DNA of 40,601 bases, from NCBI GenBank assembly GCA_944393575.1, contig CALYAP010000045.1:1-40601 (forward strand). The letters run 5' to 3'. Below, one piece after another: positions 10,164 to 14,226 of the stretch. This stretch comes from an uncultured Clostridia bacterium. GTDB lineage: Bacteria > Bacillota > Dehalobacteriia > UBA4068. The notes under the pieces are model-generated. The model was not told the DNA's origin. It saw only the letters and a program-made list of their open reading frames with translations, and searched no databases. The stretch's first letter is position 1. The number at the start of each line of letters is the position of its first letter. Made by a program: the position numbers and the translations under genes.

Positions 10164-10919
10164 TTAGGAGGTCATTTTTTCTTTGATGATTGCTAGGGCC
10201 TTTTTCTCTAGCCGTGATATTTGCACCTGAGATATAGAAAGCTCTTTAGCTAAGACAGCTTGGGTTTTTTCTTCAAAATAGCGGCCGCGAATAATATAGG
10301 CCAGCCGATCTGGCAGCTCTTCCAGCATCTTGGCCATATTAAGACGTTCCACCATCTGTTCGTTATCATCTACTGATAGGGCTTGAAGAGTGTCTTCTTT
10401 ACGATCACTATCACCGTTATTATTAGCCAATAGATCAGTGATCGAGATGATCGGCCGCATGGCTTCTGTGGCAGCCAACACTTGTTCAGAGGAGATATGG
10501 CATTCTTTGACCAGTGTCTGTAGGTCTGGCTCTTGTCCTAATTGCTGTCTAAGCTCACGTCTTCGCCTTTCGATCATTAACGCCTGTTCTTTGAGCGTTC
10601 TGCTAATTCCAATTGGCCGGTCATCCCGTAAATAACGCTTGATTTCGCCCATGATTAAAGGGACTGCGTAAGTTGAAAAACAGACGCCATAGGAAAAATC
10701 AAATTTATCAATGGCTTTGAGCAGACCAATACAGCCAACTTGGAAGAGATCTTCACGGTCATGTCCCAGTTCGGTAAAGCGGCGCACAATGCTATGTACT
10801 AAGGCCAGATTATTGGTAACTAATTGCTCTTTTGCTGAAAAATCGCCATTTTGGGCTGCTTTAATCAGGCAGTAGACTTCGTCTTCCGCCATCGGTTGGT
10901 AAGCATGTTCGCTACTCAT
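10164..10919 (-). CDS. sigF: Sporulation sigma factor F
   Basis: Sigma-F (251 residues) directs early forespore transcription. Region 2 shows EDLFQVGCIGLLKAIDKFD and FSTYAVPLIMGEIKRYLRDD. Region 3 has EPDLQTLVKECHIS. Region 4 ends with the helix-turn-helix KTQAVLAKELSISQVQISRLEKKAL. The order spoIIAA-spoIIAB-sigF identifies it among the sporulation sigma factors. It starts six bases after spoIIAB with no clear ribosome site, so it probably depends on coupling from spoIIAB. That would tie sigma-F level to its inhibitor. Confidence 0.96.
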   Translation of the reverse strand: MSSEHAYQPMAEDEVYCLIKAAQNGDFSAKEQLVTNNLALVHSIVRRFTELGHDREDLFQVGCIGLLKAIDKFDFSYGVCFSTYAVPLIMGEIKRYLRDDRPIGISRTLKEQALMIERRRRELRQQLGQEPDLQTLVKECHISSEQVLAATEAMRPIISITDLLANNNGDSDRKEDTLQALSVDDNEQMVERLNMAKMLEELPDRLAYIIRGRYFEEKTQAVLAKELSISQVQISRLEKKALAIIKEKMTS

Positions 10920-10925
10920 AGCAGT

Positions 10926-11411
10926 TTAAGACAGCTTTTTGGTTAAGGTAACGGTGGTACCGCATTTGGGAATGCTAGCCACTTCCACCTTATCCATAAA
11001 AGAGTGCATGAAGGCAAAACCCAGCCCCATTCGGTCTTGATCTTGGGAGAAATGAGGCTTCATCGCCTCTTCAATGTCTTCGATGCCCACTCCATCGTCA
11101 TGAATGGTGATAATCAGCTCATTGTCAGTTAATTCCATTGACATCTCAACCCAGCATTCCCGGTCATTTTGATATCCATGAATGATAGCATTAGAGACAG
11201 CCTCTGAGACCGCTACCTTTATCTCATCTAGTTCTGCCAGAGTCATATCACGTTCCGAGACGATAGCTGAAGCCAATAGGCGTGCTAAAGCTACGTTTTC
11301 ACTGCGGCTTTTAAAAGTAAGTTTGATTTGATTATTTTTGTTTTCTGCATTTGGTAAATTTATTTTTTTAGCTTGACTGCTGTCTAGCGTGCATTGCTCT
11401 TTATCGCTCAT
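10926..11411 (-). CDS. spoIIAB: Anti-sigma F factor / SpoIIAA kinase
   Basis: SpoIIAB is a GHKL-fold serine kinase that holds sigma-F inactive and phosphorylates SpoIIAA. The N-box SEAVSNAIIHGY and the G1 box DDGVGI are evident; the ATP lid is DRMGLGF, and the end is CGTTVTLTK. At 161 residues it is about 15-20 longer than usual because of a polar N-terminal extension of about 28 residues before the conserved start of the fold. I place the start at ATG 11411, six bases after a GGAGG site and overlapping the spoIIAA stop as TGATG. A GTG three bases upstream is also possible. Confidence 0.96.
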   Translation of the reverse strand: MSDKEQCTLDSSQAKKINLPNAENKNNQIKLTFKSRSENVALARLLASAIVSERDMTLAELDEIKVAVSEAVSNAIIHGYQNDRECWVEMSMELTDNELIITIHDDGVGIEDIEEAMKPHFSQDQDRMGLGFAFMHSFMDKVEVASIPKCGTTVTLTKKLS

Positions 11412-11764
11412 CACATTCCCTCCTTGGTATATTTGACTGAAACAGGCTTATCTATATCAATTATTCGGTGTAGCCCAGATGCGGTCAGCAAACGGTAGAC
11501 CTGTTCATGGGGATGGGTAATGATGATTTTGCCACCCATGGGTTCTAATTCCCGATACCGGCCCAAGATAACGCCTAGCCCCGAACTATCAATAAAAGTG
11601 ATTTGCGAAAAATCCAGCCAGAGCATCCTGCTGCCGCTTTTATGTAATCCTTCTATAATAGTTTCCTTAAATTCATCGGCACATGCCATGTCTAACTCTC
11701 CCTTGGGCTGGAGATAAAGCCATTCTTTATTTTGATATTTTTTTAGTTTGCTTATTATTTCCAT
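11411..11764 (-). CDS. spoIIAA: Anti-sigma F factor antagonist
   Basis: SpoIIAA is a 117-residue STAS-domain protein. When dephosphorylated it strips SpoIIAB from sigma-F. The phospho-site region FIDSSGLGVILGRY is conserved with Bacillus, and the first Ser of DSSG is the expected SpoIIAB target. The start is ATG 11764, placed by an AAGAGG site. A TTG further upstream in frame has no support. It is the first gene of the operon. The SpoIIE phosphatase that would complete the switch is not in this window. Confidence 0.97.
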   Translation of the reverse strand: MEIISKLKKYQNKEWLYLQPKGELDMACADEFKETIIEGLHKSGSRMLWLDFSQITFIDSSGLGVILGRYRELEPMGGKIIITHPHEQVYRLLTASGLHRIIDIDKPVSVKYTKEGM

Positions 11765-11796
11765 TTTTATCCTCTTTATCAAAAGGCTTTGACAGG

Positions 11797-11826
11797 AATT
11801 TCTGGTTTAGCCAATTTCTTTCCTGC
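11797..11826 (-). promoter_or_regulatory. Sigma-H-like promoter of spoIIA
   Basis: On the minus strand GCAGGAAAG (11826-11818) and CCAGAAATT (11805-11797) are 12 bases apart. The sigma-H consensus is RNAGGAWWW, 11-12 bases, RNNGAATWW. The match is strong in the AGGAAA core and GAA of the -10, with mismatches at three outer positions. spoIIA is sigma-H dependent in Bacillus, which agrees. The expected start is near 11790, about 25 bases before spoIIAA. Confidence 0.55.
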
Positions 11827-11901
11827 CGCGAAAATTGGGAAATAAACGCACTATAAGACATACGATACTAATTTGCGCCAAAAAAATGTCCGTCATTTCC
11901 C

Positions 11902-13254
11902 ATGAGAAATCAGCTAACTTTTGCGAATGCTATATTTGCGGATGCAGTGAAAGAGAACAAGAAGGGAGGGAAAAAAATTAATAAAGCTAAGCATTTTGAA
12001 CGCATTATCGGACTTGCTCTAGCGGTAGTGATTTGTGCTTTATCGGCTTTTAATATTCTGTTTTATGATATTATGTCGATGGACAAAAAACAGACTGTTC
12101 GGGCAGGTGCAGATATCAGCATTCCCGAAACGATTTTTGGTGATAGGGTAACTGCGGTCATTAGTGATGGTATGGAAATTGGCAGCATAACAGCAACCGC
12201 TGATTATAGCGACCAGTCCCTTGATAGTGATACCAATAGCTATGATGCAGTTATCAATTTAGACGGTCTGCCACTAAAAGAAATTGTTGTCGAAGAAACT
12301 GAGACTATCATGGTGCAGCCAGGTGGTCAGTCCATTGGTATCCTGCTGCAAACTGATGGCGTTAGCATCGTCGGTTTCTCACCAGTGATAACTGAAGATG
12401 GCAGTACCGTTAACCCTGCTTCTGATGCTGGATTAGTTACTGGCGATTTTATCACTAGTATTAATGGGCAAAAGATCGATACCAATGCCCAAATCGCAGC
12501 TATCATTGATGAGGCAGGGCAGGCAGGAGAGAGCTGCGAAATTGTCTATCTGCGCAACGGCATCCGTCATACGCTTAATATTGAACCTCTTTTCTGCACA
12601 GACAGTCAAACCTGGCGCATTGGACTCTATGTCCGTGATAATACTGCAGGTATCGGTACTTTAAGCTTTTATGAGCCTGAGTCTGGAGTTTATGGCGCTT
12701 TAGGCCATGAGGTGCCAGATCTGCAATATGGCGTCAGTGGGGAGAAAAAAGGTACCATTGTCAGGGCTGCTGTCCAAGGCATCAAGATTGGCGCTTCCGG
12801 CGACCCCGGTGAAAAATTAGGCGTCTTTTTGGACGAAGACTGGACAGGTGATATCCGTACCAACAGCACCTTTGGTATCTACGGTGTGCTTGATAGTCCT
12901 CCGGAAGTCCAGTATACGGACGAATTGGTTCCGGTAGCTATGATCGATGAAGTACAGACCGGACCGGCAGAGATTTATACTGTTTTAGATGGTGAGACTA
13001 TCCAGTCTTTTGATATTGAAATCGTTAAACTAATGCCTGGATATAAGCTCACTGGTAAAGGTATGATTATCAAAGTAACTGATCCAGAGTTACTAGAGAA
13101 AACTGGTGGTATTGTCCAGGGTATGAGTGGTAGCCCCATTATCCAAAACGGCATGTTTGTGGGTGCGGTTACTCATGTTTTCATCAACGATCCAACTCAG
13201 GGCTATGGCTGTTTTGGTGAGTGGATGATGGAGGATGCAGGCCTTTGTGATTAA
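11902..13254 (+). CDS. spoIVB: SpoIVB signalling serine protease
   Basis: SpoIVB is made in the forespore and secreted across its membrane to trigger pro-sigma-K processing. A membrane anchor lies at about residues 37-57. A PDZ domain (about 130-215) includes SPASDAGLVTGDFITSINGQ-like residues. The S55 peptidase domain has GALGHEV (His) and the active-site Ser motif GMSGSP (407-412), ending in GYGCFGEWM. The open frame from ATG 11902 gives 450 residues but has no ribosome site. A perfect GGGAGGG lies inside the frame at 11964-11970, six bases before ATT 11977. Starting there gives 425 residues, about the usual SpoIVB length. I see no convincing sigma-F or sigma-G promoter, only a GATACTA at 11864-11870 that resembles their -10. 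Confidence 0.95.
   Translation: MRNQLTFANAIFADAVKENKKGGKKINKAKHFERIIGLALAVVICALSAFNILFYDIMSMDKKQTVRAGADISIPETIFGDRVTAVISDGMEIGSITATADYSDQSLDSDTNSYDAVINLDGLPLKEIVVEETETIMVQPGGQSIGILLQTDGVSIVGFSPVITEDGSTVNPASDAGLVTGDFITSINGQKIDTNAQIAAIIDEAGQAGESCEIVYLRNGIRHTLNIEPLFCTDSQTWRIGLYVRDNTAGIGTLSFYEPESGVYGALGHEVPDLQYGVSGEKKGTIVRAAVQGIKIGASGDPGEKLGVFLDEDWTGDIRTNSTFGIYGVLDSPPEVQYTDELVPVAMIDEVQTGPAEIYTVLDGETIQSFDIEIVKLMPGYKLTGKGMIIKVTDPELLEKTGGIVQGMSGSPIIQNGMFVGAVTHVFINDPTQGYGCFGEWMMEDAGLCD
11964..11970 (+). promoter_or_regulatory. Internal Shine-Dalgarno before ATT codon in spoIVB
   Basis: GGGAGGG is the strongest ribosome site in the spoIVB frame. Six bases later the in-frame codon is ATT (11977-11979). 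There is no ATG, GTG or TTG at any workable distance downstream. The upstream ATG 11902 and in-frame GTG 11947 lack ribosome sites. ATT is a rare but known initiator (infC in enteric bacteria). A base error changing ATG or TTG to ATT is the alternative. Confidence 0.55.
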
Positions 13255-13287
13255 TCAGCTATATTATAAGCTGAATTAACACTACAA

Positions 13288-13330
13288 ATTCCGACAATAA
13301 TACCCGAATTTTCGGGTATTATGTCGGAAT
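13288..13330. other. Long hairpin with 0A-box-like arms, spoIVB-spo0A gap
   Basis: Bases 13288-13296 and 13298-13308 pair with 13322-13330 and 13311-13321, giving a 20-bp stem with one bulged A and a 2-base loop. No T run follows on the plus strand (AAAAAGG instead), so it is not a classic terminator for spoIVB, though it may still slow polymerase. The two outer arms read TTCCGACA and TGTCGGAA, each one base from the Spo0A box TGTCGAA in inverted orientation. It lies about 28 bases upstream of the sigma-H-like -35 of spo0A, so an autoregulatory site is possible. Confidence 0.6.
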
Positions 13331-13357
13331 AAAAAGGTATATTACTGGGGTTTTACG

Positions 13358-13386
13358 GAAGGATTTGGAAAAAGTGAAGCGAAAAC
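13358..13386 (+). promoter_or_regulatory. Sigma-H-like promoter of spo0A
   Basis: GAAGGATTT (13358-13366) matches the sigma-H -35 RNAGGAWWW at every position. After 11 bases, AGCGAAAAC (13378-13386) matches RNNGAATWW at seven of nine positions. Bacillus spo0A has a sigma-H promoter used at sporulation onset, so this fits. The leader to the start codon would be about 70 bases. Confidence 0.6.
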
Positions 13387-13464
13387 TTAAAAACATAAGG
13401 CCTTAGAAAAACAAAACTCATAAATTAAGCAAATACTAAAAAATAAAGAGAAAGCGGGATGCAT

Positions 13465-14226
13465 ATGGAACAGACCAAGAAGATTCTCATAGCTGATGAT
13501 GACAAACTTTTCTCCGAAGCTTTGGAGGAATATTTTTCTGAATTGGATAGTTATCAGGTATGCGGAGTAGCCGATAATGGACAAAAGACCCTAGAAATGA
13601 TTGAAAAACATAATCCTGATGTAGTGATTTTGGATTTAGTGATGCCGAATCTAGATGGTATTGGTGTTTTAGAAAAAATTAAAAATATGGAATTGCCAAC
13701 AACGCCGCAAATACTTTTTATTACTTCTTTTGCTCAGCCTAATGTTACTAAAAAAGCGATGGAGCTGGGAGCGGCTTATTATATGATGAAGCCCTTTGAT
13801 TTAGATACCCTGGAAGCTAGGATCAGGCAGATCAGTGAATTTGATGATGAGATCACCAGCCTACCCAAAGCATCTACCTTGGAGCTTGATATTACCCGTA
13901 TTCTTCATCAGATGGGTGTACCTGCCCATGTTAAGGGCTATCAATATCTGCGCGATGCTATTGTAATGGTTACCGAGGAAGCCAATCTGATGGGAGCAGT
14001 CACCAAAGAATTATACCCAATGATTGCTGAAAAATATAATACCACTGCTTCCAGAGTAGAACGGGCTATTCGTCATGCCATTGAGTTAGCTTGGGATCGG
14101 GGTAATGTGGATTTGATGAACCGTTATTTTGGGTATACGATTAATATTGAGCGGGGAAAGCCGACTAATTCTGAGTTTATCGCTATGATTGCTGATAAAT
14201 TGAGAATGGGGGAAAAAATGGCTTAA
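13465..14226 (+). CDS. spo0A: Sporulation master regulator Spo0A
   Basis: Spo0A is the phosphorylated response regulator that commits the cell to sporulation. The receiver domain has the acidic triad ADDD (11-13), phospho-acceptor Asp57 in [12 protein letters not shown], and the ITSF and KPFD switch residues. A linker leads to the Spo0A-specific DNA-binding domain (about 145-253) with the recognition stretch [24 protein letters not shown] choose ATG 13465 because AAAGCGGG ends six bases before it. ATG 13459 would add two residues but abuts the ribosome site. The gene follows spoIVB, as in most spore formers. Confidence 0.98.

Follow-up and report, generated by a model that had tools for sequence, protein, structure and literature searches.

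The gene for initiation factor IF3, infC, starts at AUU or another near-cognate codon and is autoregulated; it regulates itself because IF3 discriminates against infC's own start codon. E. coli pcnB also has an AUU start, which is reportedly inefficient and limits the gene product. Experimentally characterized natural near-cognate starts in bacteria are described as few (PMC5472188), and in Staphylococcus aureus grown in poor medium, noncanonical starts with an extended Shine-Dalgarno (SD) are reported to yield about 10% of the output obtained with AUG (PMC13009471). According to PMC3789822, the B. subtilis sporulation protease SpoIVB is produced under the control of sigma-F and sigma-G; it governs the processing of pro-sigma-K and has a second function, probably the cleavage of SpoIIQ. 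SpoIVB is also reported to auto-activate and to be toxic in E. coli (PMC6581720). Among the papers listed by literature searches restricted to openly licensed PMC papers, we saw no description of a non-AUG spoIVB start.

We analyzed a 40,601-nucleotide stretch of DNA (the window) from a draft genome of an uncultured Clostridia bacterium (G000; 1.67 Mb, 78 contigs, 96.89% complete), whose spoIVB gene very probably begins translation at an ATT codon, judging from the sequence around its 5′ end and from its relatives. Near-cognate starts are a known phenomenon, which spoIVB joins; it is their recurrence in this gene that is unusual. Like infC, which has an ATT start in the same genome, spoIVB combines a near-cognate start with a strong SD, although the infC autoregulatory loop has no counterpart for SpoIVB. 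AUU is common to spoIVB and pcnB, but function and lineage differ. Streptomyces sigR, as presented in PMC5472188, is similar in that a rare start and an extended ribosome site cap a regulator and in that gene finders misplace the start, but its codon is GTC, it is cotranscribed and coupled with an anti-sigma factor, and its repression by IF3 is experimental. Precedents within Bacillota are S. aureus cvfC1 (AUU) and ccpN (AUA), described in PMC13009471 as having extended SDs and conserved among relatives; unlike spoIVB they are nonsporulation genes, and they were studied by ribosome profiling and reporters. The features of the locus are as follows (G002 is a genome of the same genus; G003 and G015 are two species of a sister genus).

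11902..11904, + strand: ATG, rejected as a start; without SD, in an upstream frame not conserved as protein
11923..11932, + strand: putative forespore promoter −10 block GCGAATGCTA; kept in G002, with similar blocks in G003 and G015; weak and assigned by eye
11947..11949, + strand: GTG, rejected as a start; weak SD, AAG in G002
11960..11970, + strand: extended SD AGAAGGGAGGG; potential pairing over ten bases (11960-11969, one of the pairs G-U) to a B. subtilis-type 16S tail
11977..11979, + strand: ATT, proposed spoIVB initiation codon, from SD pairing, spacing, and near-cognate counterparts in relatives
11977..13254, + strand: spoIVB coding sequence, 425 residues plus stop from ATT; matches to TIGR02860, Peptidase_S55, and PDZ
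12004..12066, + strand: N-terminal membrane anchor, spanning roughly residues 10-30 of the ATT form; hydrophobic stretch in the translation and in a hydropathy window
13459..14226, + strand: spo0A, the next gene after spoIVB and our control for start-codon counts

The reading frame runs from ATT to an in-frame stop codon at 13252-13254. In a profile search the product scores 410.6 bits against TIGR02860 (cut-off 305.25), with residues 13-423 of the ATT form aligned to profile positions 10-401 of 402; since the profile is covered from position 10 by residue 13, the ATT start yields nearly the modeled length. A PDZ_6 domain (residues 147-191) precedes the Peptidase_S55 domain (254.5 bits, residues 212-418), which is the expected SpoIVB order. 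On these matches the gene is a SpoIVB peptidase, with protease activity and sigma-K signaling as predicted properties, and it resembles the B. subtilis protein, as described in PMC6581720, in its PDZ and S55 protease domains, N-terminal anchor, and similar length. The spoIVB-spo0A pair lies divergent to spoIIAA-spoIIAB-sigF (window 10164-14226), and several family members have spoIIAA on the spoIVB contig, on the opposite strand and within ~1 kb. Downstream from spoIVB there is a long inverted repeat (13283-13335, with CCCGAATTTTCGGG at its center) that is probably a terminator; similar repeats follow spoIVB in genomes G003 and G008, and a simple scan did not report this one.

The ten bases AGAAGGGAGG (11960-11969) pair with the 16S tail at −16.5 kcal/mol for ATT 11977, and ATT follows after a spacer of six bases when counted from the end of the G-run (11970), or of seven from GGAGG. 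The gene thus has an in-frame near-cognate codon properly spaced from a strong SD. The canonical candidates pair far less well: ATG 11902 at +0.7, GTG 11947 at −3.3, and GTG 12028, the next in-frame GTG and already inside the membrane anchor, at −3.3 kcal/mol. No usable canonical start therefore precedes the anchor, the best reaching −3.3 kcal/mol. Because we found no 16S rRNA gene in the 78-contig draft, these energies assume a B. subtilis-type tail. These values, the profile alignment, and the position of the anchor agree with an earlier note on this DNA, which had placed the strongest SD six bases before ATT, seen no ribosome sites at ATG 11902 or GTG 11947, and observed that an ATT start gives a protein close to the usual SpoIVB length with its anchor near the N terminus. 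The DNA motif by itself is not above chance, since GGAGG-N4-9-ATT shows no enrichment in the window (four found, 9.75 expected); what is unusual is its position at the sole SD-backed start of a real gene. For the putative −10 block we found no good −35, and a sigma-70 promoter scan gave nothing usable at spoIVB; if the block is real, transcription would begin downstream of ATG 11902.

We searched for spoIVB in all 20 genomes available for the family and all 35 available for the order; 30 of the latter matched at E ≤ 1e-20. The 5′ end is readable in 29 of these, whose SD-anchored starts comprise 14 TTG, 12 ATG, and three near-cognate codons: ATT in G000 and G003, and ATC in G015. In all three the near-cognate codon lies seven bases past GGAGG (in G015 this is the third of three consecutive ATC codons), and no canonical codon ahead of the anchor scores better than −3.4 kcal/mol. 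The 12 ATG genes indicate that a weak start is not obligatory. At the same 29 loci, 25 spo0A genes were found, with 24 ATG starts (eight of them with a weak SD) and one GTG. One further candidate for an ATT start, G006, was rejected: an upstream TTG has an SD (−10.2), and the gene was scored TTG, as was that of G008 despite its long spacing. Four spoIVB genes (L048, L049, L050, and L052, in G030, G028, G031, and G026, respectively) have their TTG start immediately after an in-frame ATT or ATC lying closer to the SD, and dual starts are conceivable there.

Weak spoIVB starts extend well beyond the order. A phylum sample of 199 genomes gave spoIVB matches in 169, and we examined the 5′ ends in 80 genomes outside the order, chosen among the matches listed for spread over families: 33 use TTG, 27 GTG, and only 18 ATG, and two (G068 and G229) have no backed canonical start. 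In the first 40 of these genomes ATG starts 10 spoIVB genes, whereas in the 38 in which spo0A was found it starts 29 (GTG six, TTG three; P = 1.1e-5, Fisher's exact test on the matched sets of 40 genomes). The same start-choice rule was applied to both genes, with a small ATG bonus and with spoIVB candidates limited to codons before the anchor. The contrast between 18 of 80 and 29 of 38 marks spoIVB as a broadly weak-start gene, of which ATT is the extreme.

Both genomes without a backed canonical start belong to one other family of the phylum (f33), which we then sampled. SpoIVB scores above the cut-off in 19 of 20 f33 genomes, and 12 of the 19 genes have near-cognate starts by reading: seven ATT (G238-G241 and G246-G248), two ATC (G108 and G229), and three ATA (G068, G242, and G243), beside three ATG, three TTG, and one GTG. 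In each of the nine ATT/ATC genes, AGGAGT(T)GA is separated by two codons from the ATT or ATC, and no ATG, GTG, or TTG precedes the anchor. The TGA within this motif is an in-frame stop, so a start farther upstream is impossible; in G246 and G229 the preceding codon is also ATT or ATA, which makes the exact start codon ambiguous. Among the ATA genes, that of G243 has a stop in frame five codons ahead of its ATA. Those of G068 and G242 have 17 and 24 open codons, respectively, ahead of the ATA, none of them a canonical start. The near-cognate start is kept throughout three f33 genera (ATT/ATC, nine of nine genomes) and throughout another (ATA, three of three). Conservation in relatives thus amounts to three of 29 order genes and 12 of 19 f33 genes. 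The spo0A genes of f33 (loci L241-L259) all have a canonical start behind an SD, with 12 TTG, six GTG, and only one ATG among the 19; the weak-start signal of f33 is therefore partly genome-wide. Of the 243 ORFs with an SD-backed start in the f33 genome G108, only 126 begin with ATG.

Mapped onto a tree of 48 SpoIVB proteins, the start codons must have switched between the near-cognate and canonical classes at least four times; if all six start-codon states are distinguished, the count is 14 changes. These counts do not separate gains from losses. The near-cognate rows fall into an f33 ATA clade, an f33 ATT/ATC clade, G003 with G015, and G000. The tree was built quickly and leaves 14 of its 45 inner branches open, and the start labels of three difficult rows were assigned by judgment; the N terminus was removed at a motif before alignment (G014 remained uncut, and the G011 sequence is partial).

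We propose that the strong extended SD would set ATT 11977 in the P site, where the initiator tRNA would pair with a third-position mismatch normally disfavored by IF3. The strong SD is likely to rescue this low, IF3-limited initiation, as in infC, pcnB, and sigR, and the forespore would then produce this self-activating, secreted signaling protease in small, capped amounts. Taken as a whole, this account of ATT initiation, a strong SD, and capped output appears probable to us. A capped dose, the reason also put forward in the earlier note, would be the simplest reason for weak spoIVB starts, and it fits both the toxicity of SpoIVB reported for E. coli (PMC6581720) and the phylum sample, where the weak starts of distant relatives suggest that cells keep a potentially harmful SpoIVB low. 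As the specific reason for the weak start, we lean toward low dose.

Its main competitor is neutral drift, in which the near-cognate start is used but merely tolerated, with the strong SD compensating and low dose unselected. The frequency of change on the tree, the presence of ATG, GTG, TTG, ATA, ATC, and ATT together in f33 spoIVB, and the weak spo0A starts of the same family are all as drift would have them, but the retention of near-cognate codons across whole f33 genera and the dominance of non-ATG starts in spoIVB but not in spo0A over the phylum sample are harder to reconcile with it, and we rate drift as possible but unlikely. If the low-dose account is correct, low SpoIVB dose may be a design rule, one addressable by a single codon change. 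A core sporulation protease is here added to the near-cognate-start genes, within a phylum sample that favors TTG and GTG over ATG, and gene finders restricted to ATG, GTG, and TTG would misplace the starts of these spoIVB genes. A more elaborate version, which we consider doubtful, would make spoIVB a translational checkpoint: AUU, AUC, or AUA initiation would track the forespore's IF3 level relative to its ribosomal subunits, the protease signal would be released only at a given translational state, and IF3-disfavored starts would have been repeatedly reinvented.

Much less probable is translation from ATG 11902 or GTG 11947 without an SD, giving an N-terminal extension (25 residues from ATG). 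Each codon is in frame with no intervening stop, and the frame stays open across the 17 readable codons of G002, whose contig C80 has the upstream region at its end. From ATG 11902, however, 10 of these 17 codons are identical to the window and seven are changed, all seven nonsynonymously, whereas 174 of 313 codons compared in the gene body are changed, 134 synonymously and 40 nonsynonymously (P = 5.6e-5, Fisher's exact test). The upstream frame thus shows no protein selection and looks noncoding, and the conserved upstream protein whose discovery would have counted against an ATT start is absent in this comparison. GTG 11947 is moreover AAG in G002, the pairing energies favor ATT by a wide measure (−16.5 against +0.7 and −3.3 kcal/mol), and the SpoIVB model aligns only from residue 13 of the ATT form. 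The comparison rests on the only same-genus spoIVB copy, which is split exactly at the start codon between contigs C80 (L054) and C82 (L002), so that the contig ends before the equivalent of ATT 11977. A public database scan returned one locus, the same incomplete G002 copy; a short match in G001 (E = 7.3e-8) was rejected as a second same-genus copy, not being a SpoIVB. The weakest reading, offered by the earlier note as the other simple explanation, is an assembly or base error for a true ATG at 11977: the genome is a draft and ATG followed by AATAAA would make an ordinary start, but separate errors would have to have struck the corresponding position in both G003 (ATT) and G015 (ATC), and the f33 near-cognate codons (12 of 19 genes) are common to up to eight genomes and occur in the single-contig genome G108, so that an error is scarcely credible.

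Initiation at ATT can also be set against the genomic background. In a survey based on GGAGG that covered 384 ORFs (the window's 34, 155 of G003, and 195 from 20 further contigs of the window's genome), 19 were flagged for a near-cognate codon; by reading, this codon lies at the true N terminus of only spoIVB and infC in either genome, with trmFO of G003 as a possible further case. The infC gene of the window's genome (L086, G000:C4, 22994-23491, − strand) has ATT behind GGAGGTGA, as expected for IF3, and serves as a positive control. Of 18 infC loci in the family, 12 were parsed and 11 have a visible start, by reading ATT in seven, ATC in two, and ATA in two. A second survey with pairing energies (209, 132, and 298 ORFs) was noisy, flagging many internal codons and missing infC of G000 and spoIVB of G108; we therefore used it only as start-codon background and not as a count of near-cognate genes. 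In its G000 sample, SD-backed starts comprise 147 ATG, 15 TTG, and 12 GTG, and 35 of 209 ORFs have no backed start. Other possible near-cognate starts were seen in G000:C15 (L105), in frames opening near 14070 and 19334, and in G003:C60 (L113), in a frame near 2880; from their sequences we take the ORFs at these two loci to be macrodomain-like (ATC), shikimate-kinase-like (ATT), and trmFO-like (ATC).
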